A stretch of DNA of 64,000 nucleotides from Gemmatimonadetes bacterium bin94 (GTDB lineage: Bacteria > Gemmatimonadota > Gemmatimonadetes > Longimicrobiales > Gaopeijiaceae). The stretch is taken from NCBI GenBank assembly GCA_002238865.1, contig MPNE01000004.1, positions 1 through 64,000 on the forward strand. The letters are read 5' to 3'. Both the position numbers and the translations under genes were made by a program. Position 1 is the stretch's first letter. Every line of letters begins with the position of its first letter. The notes beneath the pieces are model-generated. The model worked only from the letters and a program-made list of their open reading frames with translations. It was not told the DNA's origin and did no database searches. Positions 15,297 to 19,924 of the stretch are shown one piece after another.

Positions 15297-15518
15297 ATGG
15301 CTTCCCGGAGCGTCGTCTTTCGCAGTTGCGCGGCTTTTCTCTTTACGCTGGCGGTCCCCGCGGTCGCGCTGGCCCAGACCACGGGGGGCGGACGCGGCGC
15401 GCTGCGCCCCTACGTCCACATCTTTCTGGCGTACGGAGCGGTCTGGATCCTGATCCTCGTATGGGTCTGGCTCATTGCCCGGGGATTGAAGCGCGTGACG
15501 GCGCGCCATCCGGACTGA
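15297..15518 (+). CDS. ccmD: CcmD-like small membrane protein
   Basis: Small TM protein after ccmC, YVHIFLAYGAVWILILVWVWLIARGLKRV. Confidence 0.6.
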   Translation: MASRSVVFRSCAAFLFTLAVPAVALAQTTGGGRGALRPYVHIFLAYGAVWILILVWVWLIARGLKRVTARHPD

Positions 15519-16893
15519 GGACTTCGCCAAGGTCTGGCCGGCCGGCGACCTCGGCGGCGAGGTCCTCTGCCGTGTCGATGTCCGACTCCACCTCCAGGTG
15601 GGTGACGCTCAGCCCGAGTTCGGCGCACCTGGACAGGGTCTCCGCGAGGACCGACTCCGTGCTCCAACGGATGCCCGTGAAGAGTTCCGGACGGGGCTCG
15701 CCGAGCGCCATCAGGTAGTACCCTCCGTCAGAGGCCGGTCCGAGCACGACGTCGGCCGAGTCCAGCGCCTCGATCGCGCGCGTGATCGTTCGGGACGTGA
15801 CCGCGGGGGTGTCCGTCCCGATGACGACAACGCGGCTCGAGCGCTCGAAGCCGCGGCGGAACATGCGGGACATCCTGGCGCCCAAATCGCCGTCGCCCTG
15901 GTGCCAGTACCGCCGCGGGGCAGATCCGAGCCACTCCCGGACTTCGGCCTCGGCTCCACCCGGATCGTAGCATACGGTCAGGGCGGCCGGCGCCGGCGCC
16001 ACCCGGTCGACGATCAGGCGTCCCATGCGCCGGTACACGGCGGCCGCTGCCTCGTGGCCCAGTTCCCGCGCGAGCCGGGTCTTCACGGTTCCGGGACGGG
16101 GTGCCTTGGCGAAGACGAGCAGGGTGGCCTGAGGATCGCCGGGGCGTGGGGCTCCCGGGTCGCGATCGCGACCGACGCTTCTTCGCGGCGGATACCGCGC
16201 GGCCAGAGCGGAGGGGGCCGCGCCCGCCAGAAACCGGGTGATCAGGCGCACGTTTCGGAGCCACCCCCTGACGCGGCCCTCCTCTTCGTAGCGGCGGGGG
16301 CTGGTGGCGACCGCAGCCGGGAGGCGAAGGAGCCGTCCCGCGAGCAACAGCCGGCGGTTCAGCGTGACGTCCTCCATCAGCGGCTCGTCGGGGTAGGGGC
16401 CCAACGTGAAGAGGAGGTTGCGCCGGATCAGGAGGCCCTGGTCACCGTAGACGAGCCCCAGGCGCCGCTCGCGGATCCGTTGTCCCCTCTCGATGACGCG
16501 GTAGAAGAAGTGCTCGTGCGAGATGGAGAGTCCGAAGTGCGCCGCCATCGGCCCGTCTTCGCGAACGTGGGTTTCGATGGCCTGGAGAGCCGGCTTGCCG
16601 AGGCGCGAATCGGCGTGCAGAAACAGCAGCCAGCGTCCCGCGACCCACCGGGCGCCGGCGTTCATTTGACGCGCCCTTCCACGCCGCCCCCTCATGACGT
16701 GGGCGCCGCGGGCTCTGGCGACCGACACCGTTGCGTCGCGCGAGCCACCGTCGACCACCATGACGATGTGTTCCAGCGTGAGCCGGGACAGGTCGCTCAG
16801 CAGGCCGGGAAGGGTCTCGGCCTCGTCCAGTGCGGGGATGACGATGCCGAGTGCGGGCGTCCCGCCGCCACCGCCCGCGTGGGGACTGACCAC
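15472..16893 (-). CDS. Fused glycosyltransferase: N-terminal TIGR04283-type GT2 plus C-terminal TIGR04282/DUF2064-type domain
   Basis: GIVIPALDEAETLPGLL...VDGGSRDATV...LFLHADSRL (GT2), then LLVFAKAPRPGTVKTRLARELG...VVIGTDTPAVTSRTI...GPASDGGYYLMAL (DUF2064-like). Confidence 0.85.
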   Translation of the reverse strand: MVSPHAGGGGGTPALGIVIPALDEAETLPGLLSDLSRLTLEHIVMVVDGGSRDATVSVARARGAHVMRGRRGRARQMNAGARWVAGRWLLFLHADSRLGKPALQAIETHVREDGPMAAHFGLSISHEHFFYRVIERGQRIRERRLGLVYGDQGLLIRRNLLFTLGPYPDEPLMEDVTLNRRLLLAGRLLRLPAAVATSPRRYEEEGRVRGWLRNVRLITRFLAGAAPSALAARYPPRRSVGRDRDPGAPRPGDPQATLLVFAKAPRPGTVKTRLARELGHEAAAAVYRRMGRLIVDRVAPAPAALTVCYDPGGAEAEVREWLGSAPRRYWHQGDGDLGARMSRMFRRGFERSSRVVVIGTDTPAVTSRTITRAIEALDSADVVLGPASDGGYYLMALGEPRPELFTGIRWSTESVLAETLSRCAELGLSVTHLEVESDIDTAEDLAAEVAGRPDLGEVLSPDGAPSRASIPGQ

Positions 16894-16899
16894 AAGGCG

Positions 16900-18456
16900 C
16901 TACCGTGACGCGTCGTTCAGGGTCCAGTCGTAGTCGAGAAACTCCAACTCCGCGGCGGAGCTGAGGAGCGCTTCCCCGGCATCGCCCTCGGCGAACCCCG
17001 CCAGGAATGACCGAATGCCCTCGACACCTCCGAAATCCTCCTGGAACCATTCGAGCACACGGTTGACCTGGACCGTCTCCGGGCTCTGGCCCATCACCAC
17101 CCGGAAGTGTGCGGGATCCTGCACGAAGGCGCGCACCCGCGCATCCAGCTGGTCCTCGAGCGAGTGTCCTTCGTACGCCCGGTCGATCAGGGGCGGACAG
17201 CTCCGCGCCGCGCAGTTGATCGCGAAGTGAATTCGCGGGTCGCCCATGGGCCGGATGATCTCGTGCTCGATTTCGTCCAGCGACCGCACCTTGCCCGCCA
17301 CCGGGCAGTGATCACCGGTAAAGACGTCGGAGATCTGCCACACCGAATTGTCCGGCCTGCCCGCGGCAGCGTTCTTGAGCCGCTGCAAGCCCCCGGCCTT
17401 CCTGATCGGATAGTGTTCGATCACCCGCTTGAGCATGCACGCGTTGTAGGCGTTGATCCAGAAGGCGAGTCGCTCCGCGGCGGACGCCTCCGCGAGGGCG
17501 GCCGGGCTGGCCGTGTCCAGCATGTCGATGTAGCGGTAGAGACCCGACGGGTCCGCGGCCAGCCGCTCGTAGTGGACGCCCGGGAGCTCGACGACATCCG
17601 CGAGGACTTCGGTGAAAACCGCGTGGCCGGGAAGCTGGAGGGCCGGGGTGGACGAGGCGACTCCGCGCCCGGCAAGCACTGATCCGCAGACAAGCGCGAC
17701 AACCGCGGTCATCCCCGGCAGGCGAACATTCATGCGCTTGAGTATTGCGGGGAGGAAGCTCAGCAGCAAGAGGAGGACACCCGCAAGAAGTACGCGGAGC
17801 AGCGCGTCCCGCGACGCTTCCCGGGAACCCTGAAGGAGGGCGTCCGCGAAGAAGGTGTAGACCGCGGTGCCGGGCAGGATGCCTACAAGGGTGGCGACCG
17901 CGTAAGTGCGCCAGCGGAGCGGCATGAGCCCGGACCCGAAGTTGAGGGCGTTGAAGGGCACGAGCGGAATGAGCCGTAGTGTGAGCAGCCCGCGGAATCC
18001 GTGACGATGGACGACATCGTCCAGCTTTTGGAGTGCCGTGGAGTCCTTTCCGATCAGACCCCGGATGCCGTCCCTCCCCAGCGTGCGCGCGATGAGGAAT
18101 GCCGCGTTGGCGCCGATGTTGGCGGCGACGAAGTTGAAGAGGGTGCCCCAGTAGAAGCCGAAGAGGGCGCCGCCCGCGAGGGTCAGGATCGTTCCCGGCA
18201 CCGCCAGCGACGTCGCGGTGGCATAGATGGTGACAAAGATGAACGGGGCCCATGGATGGCCGCTCAGCCAGGCCATCGCTTCCCCGATTCCCTCCCGGGT
18301 CAGGTAGTTGCTCACGGGCGTCTGCGTCGCCACCAGGTAGCCCCCGGCCAGGACGGCAACGAGCAGGGCGAGTTTGAGCAGAGGGCCTGTCCGGTTCGGG
18401 CCGCCCGTGCCGGGGACATCGCCTCCGGGACGCCCGGTTTCGTCTACTTGAGCCAT
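16900..18456 (-). CDS. Fusion of VTT/TVP38-TMEM64 membrane domain with DUF547 domain
   Basis: N-terminal TATSLAVPGTILTLAGGALFGFYWGTLFNFVAANIGANAAFLIAR and LRLIPLVPFNALNFGSG (VTT); C-terminal FWINAYNACMLKRVIEHYP...IHFAINCAARSCPPL (DUF547). Confidence 0.85.
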   Translation of the reverse strand: MAQVDETGRPGGDVPGTGGPNRTGPLLKLALLVAVLAGGYLVATQTPVSNYLTREGIGEAMAWLSGHPWAPFIFVTIYATATSLAVPGTILTLAGGALFGFYWGTLFNFVAANIGANAAFLIARTLGRDGIRGLIGKDSTALQKLDDVVHRHGFRGLLTLRLIPLVPFNALNFGSGLMPLRWRTYAVATLVGILPGTAVYTFFADALLQGSREASRDALLRVLLAGVLLLLLSFLPAILKRMNVRLPGMTAVVALVCGSVLAGRGVASSTPALQLPGHAVFTEVLADVVELPGVHYERLAADPSGLYRYIDMLDTASPAALAEASAAERLAFWINAYNACMLKRVIEHYPIRKAGGLQRLKNAAAGRPDNSVWQISDVFTGDHCPVAGKVRSLDEIEHEIIRPMGDPRIHFAINCAARSCPPLIDRAYEGHSLEDQLDARVRAFVQDPAHFRVVMGQSPETVQVNRVLEWFQEDFGGVEGIRSFLAGFAEGDAGEALLSSAAELEFLDYDWTLNDASR

Positions 18457-19883
18457 TGGATGATCCGCTTGAGGGTTCTGCCCGAGGCCGTATCGAGGCG
18501 CGAGCGCATGAATTCGCCGGAGGCTCTCTTCACCCCCTCGACCATGGTGGGGTAGGGGAAGATCGTGTTGGCCACCTGGCTCAGGCCGAGGCCGTGCTGC
18601 TTCGCAAGGACGAGGGGCAGGATCAGGTCCCCGGCCCCGTGCGCGACGATGGTGGCCCCGAGGATCCTCCCCTTGCGATCCGCGGATACCTTTACGAAGC
18701 CCACCGCCGAGCCGTCCACGATGGCCCGATCGAGGTCATCCATGCCGTAGCGGTAGGTAATGCCGCCCACAGCCTCGGCCTCCGCTTCCGACAGCCCGAC
18801 GTGGGCGATCTCGGGGTCCGTGAAAGTGACCCAGGGAACATTGTCGTAACGGATCTTCGTCCTTGCGGGCAGGATGGCGTTGCGCAGGGCCGCCTTGGCC
18901 ATATGCTCCGCGACGTGGGTGAACTGCAGTGCGCCGGTGACGTCGCCGACCGCCCACGCCGTTCGGGACGACGTCCGCAGGTGATGGTCGACGACGACCG
19001 CTCCACGCTCCGTCCGGATGCCGGCTGCGTCGAGGTTCATCCCGTCCGTGCAGGGTCTCCGGCCGGTCGCCACGAACAGTCGGGAGGCCTCCACCCGGGA
19101 CCCGTCGTTCGCTTCCACCACGGTCCGGCCGCCCTCCATGTGCACAGCGGCGGCAGCAGTGCCGACGCGCACGTCGATGCCTTCCTCCACCAGAAGGGCA
19201 TGCATGAAGGCCGCGACATCGGGATCCTCCTTGATCAGGATCGATGGCGCCATCTCGAGCACCGTCACGCGCGAGCCCAATCGCGCAAAGACCTGTGCGA
19301 ACTCGACCCCGATCGGGCCGCCCCCGAGGATGACGATGGACTCCGGCAGTTCGTCCTGGTCGAAGACGGTTTCGTAGGTCCAGTAGCCGGAGGATTCCAG
19401 GCCGCTGATCGGGGGCACCGCGGGCACCGCGCCGGTAGCGATGACAAAGCGCTTCGCCTGCACCCTGCCGACTCCCTCCACCTCCACGGTGGACTCGTTC
19501 ACGAACCGGGCGGTTCCGAAATGAACGGCAACGCCCATCTTGCGGAAACGCTCGGGGTCGTCATGGTGTGCGACCGTTCCGCGCGCTGCCCTCATGCGAT
19601 CCATGATCGCACGGAATTCGTGCCTTTCCCGGGCGGGACGGAGCCCCAGTCCGTCCGCGCGGTCCATTCCGCGCGCCAATCGCGCGGATGCGATGAGTGC
19701 CTTCGAGGGCACACAGCCCGTCCAGAGGCAGTCGCCCCCCAGCGCGGCTTTCTCGACGATCGCCGGGTTGAGGCCCAGGTAGGCTGCCCCCGCTGCAGAG
19801 ACCAATCCCCCCGTGCCTCCGCCGAGGGCCACGAGATCGTAGGTCCCTGAAAAATGGTCCCGTTCAGACATGTACTTGCCCAT
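18444..19883 (-). CDS. FAD-dependent pyridine nucleotide-disulfide oxidoreductase (MerA/Lpd-like)
   Basis: LGGGTGGLVSAAGAAYLG, redox motif GGDCLWTGCVPSKAL, NAD motif ILGGGPIGVEFAQVF, C-terminal dimerisation domain. Confidence 0.85.
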   Translation of the reverse strand: MGKYMSERDHFSGTYDLVALGGGTGGLVSAAGAAYLGLNPAIVEKAALGGDCLWTGCVPSKALIASARLARGMDRADGLGLRPARERHEFRAIMDRMRAARGTVAHHDDPERFRKMGVAVHFGTARFVNESTVEVEGVGRVQAKRFVIATGAVPAVPPISGLESSGYWTYETVFDQDELPESIVILGGGPIGVEFAQVFARLGSRVTVLEMAPSILIKEDPDVAAFMHALLVEEGIDVRVGTAAAAVHMEGGRTVVEANDGSRVEASRLFVATGRRPCTDGMNLDAAGIRTERGAVVVDHHLRTSSRTAWAVGDVTGALQFTHVAEHMAKAALRNAILPARTKIRYDNVPWVTFTDPEIAHVGLSEAEAEAVGGITYRYGMDDLDRAIVDGSAVGFVKVSADRKGRILGATIVAHGAGDLILPLVLAKQHGLGLSQVANTIFPYPTMVEGVKRASGEFMRSRLDTASGRTLKRIIQWLK

Positions 19884-19924
19884 GGATAGGAATAGCTTTG
19901 TAGCGCGCAAAGGGTTCCGCACGA

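Follow-up and report, generated by a model that had tools for sequence, protein, structure and literature searches.

Annotation assigns every TIGR04282 or TIGR04283 protein to arsenosugar biosynthesis; in the phylum Gemmatimonadota, four out of five genomes with such proteins have no ArsS, the radical S-adenosylmethionine (SAM) enzyme by which arsenic is adenosylated when oxo-arsenosugars are made (review PMC12159101). What these proteins could be doing in such genomes is the question raised by an operon of Gemmatimonadetes bacterium bin94, found in the stretch of 64,000 nucleotides analysed here and called the window (contig MPNE01000004.1, positions 1 to 64,000). Its three minus-strand genes are, in the order of transcription, a MerA-like flavoprotein (gene A), a VTT-DUF547 fusion (gene B) and a TIGR04283-TIGR04282 fusion (gene C, the domains of which are abbreviated GT83 and GT82), and together they represent a compact candidate set for activation, transfer, membrane translocation and redox. 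In our literature search, the late stages of arsenosugar and arsenolipid synthesis in bacteria were poorly covered, and little or nothing relevant was found on TIGR04282/TIGR04283, arsenosugar clusters, Rv1681 or the metallophosphatase considered below.

Radical SAM enzymes accompanying the operon modules

The initial annotation reported no ArsS in the window, and a genome-wide profile check extended this to the whole assembly, where the best match to TIGR04167 reached 44.8 bits (cut-off 300); among the sampled members of the genus ArsS was recognised in 0/15, including the single-contig genomes G017 and G058. The protein giving this best sub-threshold score (G000:C11:22143-23141) is a radical SAM protein of 333 amino acids, here called rSAM-X, that lies outside the stretch open to the initial annotation and that tracks the operon across the phylum. 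Its best-scoring named family is that of the Rv1681 radical SAM proteins (NF049973), yet at 94.6 bits it is so far under the cut-off of 380 that no named family fits.

We studied its distribution in an even draw of 200 Gemmatimonadota genomes, mostly draft bins. TIGR04283 is present in 65 of them (64 score above the curated cut-off, and G049 has an incomplete gene); 44 have rSAM-X, 15 have ArsS and 5 have a fusion of PqqD-like, radical SAM and ArsM-like parts. All rSAM-X genomes carry TIGR04283 (44/44, Fisher 1.5e-28), as do 13 of the 15 with ArsS, a 14th (G195) having a TIGR04283 gene cut short by the end of a contig, and 4 of the 5 with the fusion, the fifth match being without the radical SAM half. 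Conversely, 61 of the 65 TIGR04283 genomes encode exactly one of ArsS (13), rSAM-X (44) or the fusion (4), with no overlap (any of the three types against TIGR04283, Fisher 1.6e-42). Four genomes are exceptions: in G033 and G199 the GT82/GT83 locus itself contains a radical SAM protein of the Rv1681 type, and G124 encodes a radical SAM protein of the type found in Roseomonas; only G042 is left without a radical SAM relative, and its sampled congeners have rSAM-X. In the G033 and G199 loci (L109, L110), a putative PhnD-like substrate-binding protein is encoded together with the Rv1681-type protein between GT82 and GT83.

The same pattern is found at closer range. In genus g7, rSAM-X and TIGR04283 are both present in G081 and G164 and both absent from G135 and G153; in genus g12 (G115, G117) they are present or absent together, and within the family of bin94 itself G092 and G187 have ArsS in place of rSAM-X. 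In G038, an rSAM-X ortholog (61%) lies on the same 8-kb stretch as a phosphoesterase, MerA, VTT, GT83 and GT82. A maximum-likelihood tree places ArsS and every other radical SAM type in a group of its own, and the stem that leads to ArsS is very long. The reason that we offer for the ArsS-less genomes is that other radical SAM enzymes stand in for ArsS, which gives the unnamed family rSAM-X a specific predicted role, and partners, that can be tested.

Some candidates were set aside. The neighbours of rSAM-X in its own genus (aldehyde dehydrogenase, phosphopantetheinyl transferase) do not follow it into other families, and a match on a Mycolicibacterium plasmid belongs to the Rv1681-type subfamily and has a different neighbourhood. 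On plasmids, only one full-length relative was found in context, in Roseomonas, together with DUF547, TIGR04282, VTT and a phosphoesterase with a CxC motif. This cluster (L129, Roseomonas haemaphysalidis plasmid, 48165-64923) encodes VTT, an FAD oxidoreductase, two DUF547 proteins, the CxC metallophosphoesterase, two radical SAM proteins and TIGR04282, as well as a PhnD/PhnE-type ABC transporter, and has no annotated ArsS.

The operon modules are an arsenosugar gene set. On a plasmid of Acinetobacter portensis, arsS is followed by a VTT/FAD oxidoreductase fusion, DUF547, TIGR04283, TIGR04282, a methyltransferase and an inorganic phosphate transporter, then by mtnP on the opposite strand; Burkholderia glumae plasmids have arsS, mtnP, TIGR04283, TIGR04282 and the VTT/FAD fusion inside 14 kb; an unannotated Cupriavidus plasmid reads transporter, methyltransferase, ArsS, MerA, VTT, GT83, GT82 and MtnP, with DUF547 nearby; and G195, itself a Gemmatimonadota genome, combines MerA, ArsS and VTT with the truncated GT83. 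ArsS is thus usually accompanied by the modules that the window contains: TIGR04283, TIGR04282, VTT, the MerA-like oxidoreductase and DUF547 are shared with these clusters, the modules stand in the Acinetobacter order, and an ArsM is encoded in the genome. By contrast, ArsS is absent from the genome and methylthioadenosine (MTA) phosphorylase from the genus, the co-distributed radical SAM protein is unlinked and of another family, and the fusions differ, being GT83 with GT82 and VTT with DUF547 here and VTT with the oxidoreductase in Acinetobacter. The initial annotation had suggested a distinct pathway, which holds in so far as this is not ordinary ArsS-type synthesis; a pathway unrelated to arsenosugars is contradicted by the same modules lying beside arsS and mtnP on plasmids. 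The A. portensis plasmid (pJNE5-X3_NDM-1; L126, 130975-152235) is mobilizable and named for NDM-1, and its complete ArsS-type cluster lies beside transposase genes.

We propose, as a reading whose chances we consider evenly balanced, an ArsS-independent pathway of the arsenosugar type; the operon would be its downstream module, and the unlinked rSAM-X would take the place of ArsS. What is observed is which genes are present, that ArsS is missing, and that TIGR04283 almost perfectly tracks one of several alternative radical SAM enzymes, rSAM-X in this genus; the steps of the mechanism are inferred. In this scheme rSAM-X would join a 5'-deoxyadenosyl group to arsenic, as ArsS does, giving an adenosyl-arsenical from which a nucleoside phosphorylase or hydrolase would strip adenine, leaving 5-deoxy-5-arseno-ribose (1-phosphate). 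The TIGR04282 domain, as a CofC-like nucleotidyltransferase, would activate this sugar and the TIGR04283 domain, of glycosyltransferase family 2 (GT2), would attach it to an acceptor, either glycerol or a lipid; VTT would carry the lipid across the inner membrane, DUF547 would modify it on the outer side, and the MerA-like flavoprotein would keep the arsenic or a thiol partner reduced.

Arsenic-related genes and a non-arsenic alternative

The initial annotation had found no ArsM, which is right for the window but not for the genome: an unlinked ArsM lies on another contig (G000:C2:147403-148242; NF008823, 294 bits against a cut-off of 263), although it falls under the cut-off of the arsenosugar-specific model NF038099. 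A second pointer to arsenic is a metallophosphoesterase, orthologs of which occur in 27 rSAM-X genomes, nearly all directly adjoining rSAM-X (in G077, about 4 kb off). A metallophosphoesterase encoded beside arsM in an ars operon is reported to be similar to Car1, the arsenate reductase of Rufibacter tibetensis, in which cysteines 74 and 76, a CxC pair, are essential (PMC12124457). The motif DCQCGYTDP is kept in all seven rSAM-X-type phosphoesterases examined, and from its spacing the CxC pair beside rSAM-X in these other genera may correspond to the essential pair of Car1. More distant homologues in the phylum have ArsM no farther than about 3.5 kb away in 35 of the 69 listed cases (hand count), those examined keeping CGC, and one CxC homologue of this distant kind is in the bin94 genome itself (G000:C42). 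The metallophosphoesterase genes of G008:C46 (L254) and G187:C385 (L253) have the form HCGCxYEDP, and the gene order in G008 is ArsR, ArsM, phosphoesterase.

In G115, rSAM-X is preceded by an ArsM-like protein of 395 amino acids that has a CC at its C terminus and shares 60% identity with the ArsM found next to ArsS in G018. Proteins of G141 and of a Chloroflexi bin join a radical SAM domain to an ArsM-like one and are encoded next to a homologue of a phosphate transporter and to MerA/VTT/GT83/GT82, and a third bin (L141, Gemmatimonadota) has the radical SAM/ArsM fusion beside MerA/VTT/GT83/GT82. These proteins of about 825 amino acids (L112:3750-6227, L141:5264-7744, L175:3440-5971) consist of a PqqD-like region, a radical SAM domain and a methyltransferase resembling ArsM that carries a C-terminal CC, and are possibly one-protein enzymes for arsenic methylation and adenosylation.

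Several observations weigh against the proposed arsenosugar-type pathway. ArsM was not recognised in 18 of the 44 rSAM-X genomes (NF008823, 1e-40), including the single-contig G017, and rSAM-X is depleted, not enriched, with ArsM (p=0.005). In bin94 rSAM-X is unlinked to the operon; the Car1-like phosphoesterase is outside the window operon, and no ortholog of the rSAM-X type was found in the genus. MTA phosphorylase (TIGR01694) had no match at E 1e-40 in the genus and, being present at this threshold in only 22 of the 200 genomes, was rejected as a universal partner. The branch between rSAM-X and ArsS is so long that their sequences do not imply a shared reaction; absence calls depend on thresholds and the Fisher values given above ignore phylogeny; and the predicted chemistry and gene functions rest on guilt by association.

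The best-surviving alternative, which we consider unlikely but which deserves to be taken seriously, is that the pathway makes a deoxyribosyl glycolipid without arsenic: rSAM-X would adenosylate some other acceptor, as HpnH does with hopene, TIGR04282/TIGR04283 would make the glycolipid, and ArsS clusters would be an arsenic-specialised version of a general module. The two ArsM results favour it, as do the use of the same module by several different radical SAM families and the fact that TIGR04283 is about four times commoner without ArsS than with it. Against it stand the Car1-like CxC phosphoesterase adjoining rSAM-X, with its ArsM-linked homologues, and the ArsM-like proteins adjoining or fused to radical SAM proteins in G115, G141 and the Chloroflexi bin. 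A broader idea, doubtful though a little easier to accept, is that rSAM-X is a new radical SAM class with an adenosylated product unlike the one made by ArsS, either an arsenical that is not methylated or an adduct free of arsenic, TIGR04282/TIGR04283-VTT-DUF547-MerA being a general machine that would turn 5'-modified nucleosides made by radical SAM enzymes into membrane glycolipids, with arsenosugars as one outcome.

Conservation of the gene set

The initial annotation had also looked to conserved co-occurrence as support for a common pathway, and this is what neighbourhood analysis found. The set MerA-VTT-DUF547-GT83-GT82 is present in all 15 sampled members of the genus (split over two contigs in G151) and in related genera, where it sits between recA/alaS and the cytochrome c biogenesis genes (ccm). 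The fusion of VTT with DUF547 is conserved in about 20 genomes of the phylum sample, and gene B used as query has a match somewhere in 111 of the 200; beyond the phylum, the scan of our collection was made with one query. The gene set is scattered across the phylum and beyond, and also occurs on plasmids.

It is improbable that these are independent genes without a common pathway, joined only by conserved order around recA and ccm. The stability of the recA/alaS-ccm region in this family is what such an explanation would predict, and reduced sets do exist, namely DUF547-GT83-GT82 without MerA-VTT (L057-L062) and MerA-VTT-GT83-GT82 (L065, L067). However, in other families (G145, G020, G050, G075) the set lies elsewhere than near recA and is therefore not merely inherited gene order; the same combinations also occur in G038, G141, Acinetobacter, Cupriavidus and Chloroflexi, and in G020 (L064) all five modules are separate genes.

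The three genes and their surroundings

The operon structure given by the initial annotation agrees with the coordinates, genes A and B overlapping by 13 bp (18444-18456) and genes B and C being separated by 6 bp (16894-16899), and its description of two of the three genes as fusions is borne out by firm domain matches (PF09335, PF04784, TIGR04283, TIGR04282).

Gene C (15472-16893, minus strand, 473 amino acids) exceeds the NCBIfam cut-offs in both halves. The TIGR04283 GT2 domain (16192-16851, residues 15-234) scores 212 bits against a cut-off of 182 and has the motifs DGGS (residue 48), HADS (93), YGDQG (149) and EDV (174); the TIGR04282/DUF2064 domain (15559-16122, residues 258-445) scores 203 bits against 134, with KTRL (271), GTD (359) and DGGYY (389). 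The catalytic-type motifs DGGS, HAD, YGDQG and ED of the former and KTRL, GTD and DGGYY of the latter are invariant in homologues. In comparisons with the PDB, the TIGR04282 half matched 3cgx, a putative nucleotide-diphospho-sugar transferase (1.1e-49), and, weakly, 7p97, a 3-phosphoglycerate guanylyltransferase (7.2e-05). Given this relationship, 'glycosyltransferase' is probably the wrong word for TIGR04282, and this half is probably a CofC-like nucleotidyltransferase, the sugar-activating partner of the TIGR04283 GT2 domain.

Gene B (16900-18456, minus strand, 518 amino acids) joins a VTT (DedA/TVP38) domain (PF09335, 17845-18201, residues 86-204; E 3e-27, 96 bits), with a reentrant-helix motif LRLIPLVPFN at residue 160 that is conserved in homologues, to a DUF547 domain (PF04784, 17122-17490, residues 323-445; E 1e-25). 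In the latter INxYN, E, H, C, C and W are invariant across 14 homologues, and the signal-like peptides with which some stand-alone DUF547 homologues start suggest that the domain is probably exocytoplasmic. An AlphaFold model of DUF547 alone (window 16900-17634) was of high confidence (predicted local distance difference test 93.1, predicted template modelling score (pTM) 0.91) and had no match in the PDB below E 1, so that the enzymatic class could not be assigned; judging from this model, no structure related to the DUF547 fold appears to have been solved. The model of the full-length fusion had a pTM of 0.51 and no PDB match.

Gene A (18444-19871, alternative upper end 19883, minus strand) encodes a MerA-like FAD/NAD(P) disulfide oxidoreductase (Pyr_redox_2 1.3e-56, Pyr_redox_dim 7.4e-24), of 475 amino acids from the ATG at 19871 or of 492 (the longest open reading frame) from the GTG at 19922. 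Its redox-active motif CLWTGC (19713-19730, minus strand; C48-x4-C53) has both cysteine columns invariant in an alignment of 12 homologues. The best family is that of the PRK06370-type FAD oxidoreductases (473.9 bits, cut-off 620), and the MerA model (TIGR02053) gives 372.7 bits, under its cut-off of 454.45, so that 'MerA-like', as in the initial annotation, is the correct label and 'MerA' is not. The fusion of VTT (COG0398, DedA) to an oxidoreductase of this class (Pyr_redox_2) is a known general arrangement, the bifunctional TVP38/TMEM64/FAD-dependent oxidoreductase (PMC10127716). The likeness here lies in the two being adjacent, overlapping by those 13 bp and unfused; by contrast with that protein, the VTT of the window is fused to DUF547 and the operon runs on into the glycosyltransferase pair.

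That the MerA-like character of gene A marks a detoxification operon for mercury or another metal, with a mercuric reductase at its core and a glycosyltransferase module that only happens to be there, is very improbable: besides the sub-threshold score, the C-terminal vicinal cysteine pair of MerA is absent (cysteines only at 48, 53 and 274 of 475), no mer gene was recognised in the operon or the flanking genes examined, and the link of VTT with such oxidoreductases is a general one. Least credible of all is ordinary ArsS-type synthesis with an arsS missed through incomplete assembly, since, even though the assembly is of draft quality (83 contigs, 97.5% complete) and ArsS is associated with TIGR04283 across the phylum (p=1e-5), the absence of ArsS from every sampled genus member, the two single-contig genomes included, refutes it for the genus.

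The operon is flanked by the ccm genes on one side and by recA and alaS on the other. The genes found between operon and ccm in relatives (an outer-membrane-like protein, a threonine-aldolase-like gene and others) were considered as pathway members and set aside. In relatives, the conserved gene for the outer-membrane-like protein (LRYGSGLLDIPVA...) occupies the opposite strand between operon and ccm (L036:5440-7155 and its counterparts in further members of the genus); in the window the two are too close together for it to fit.

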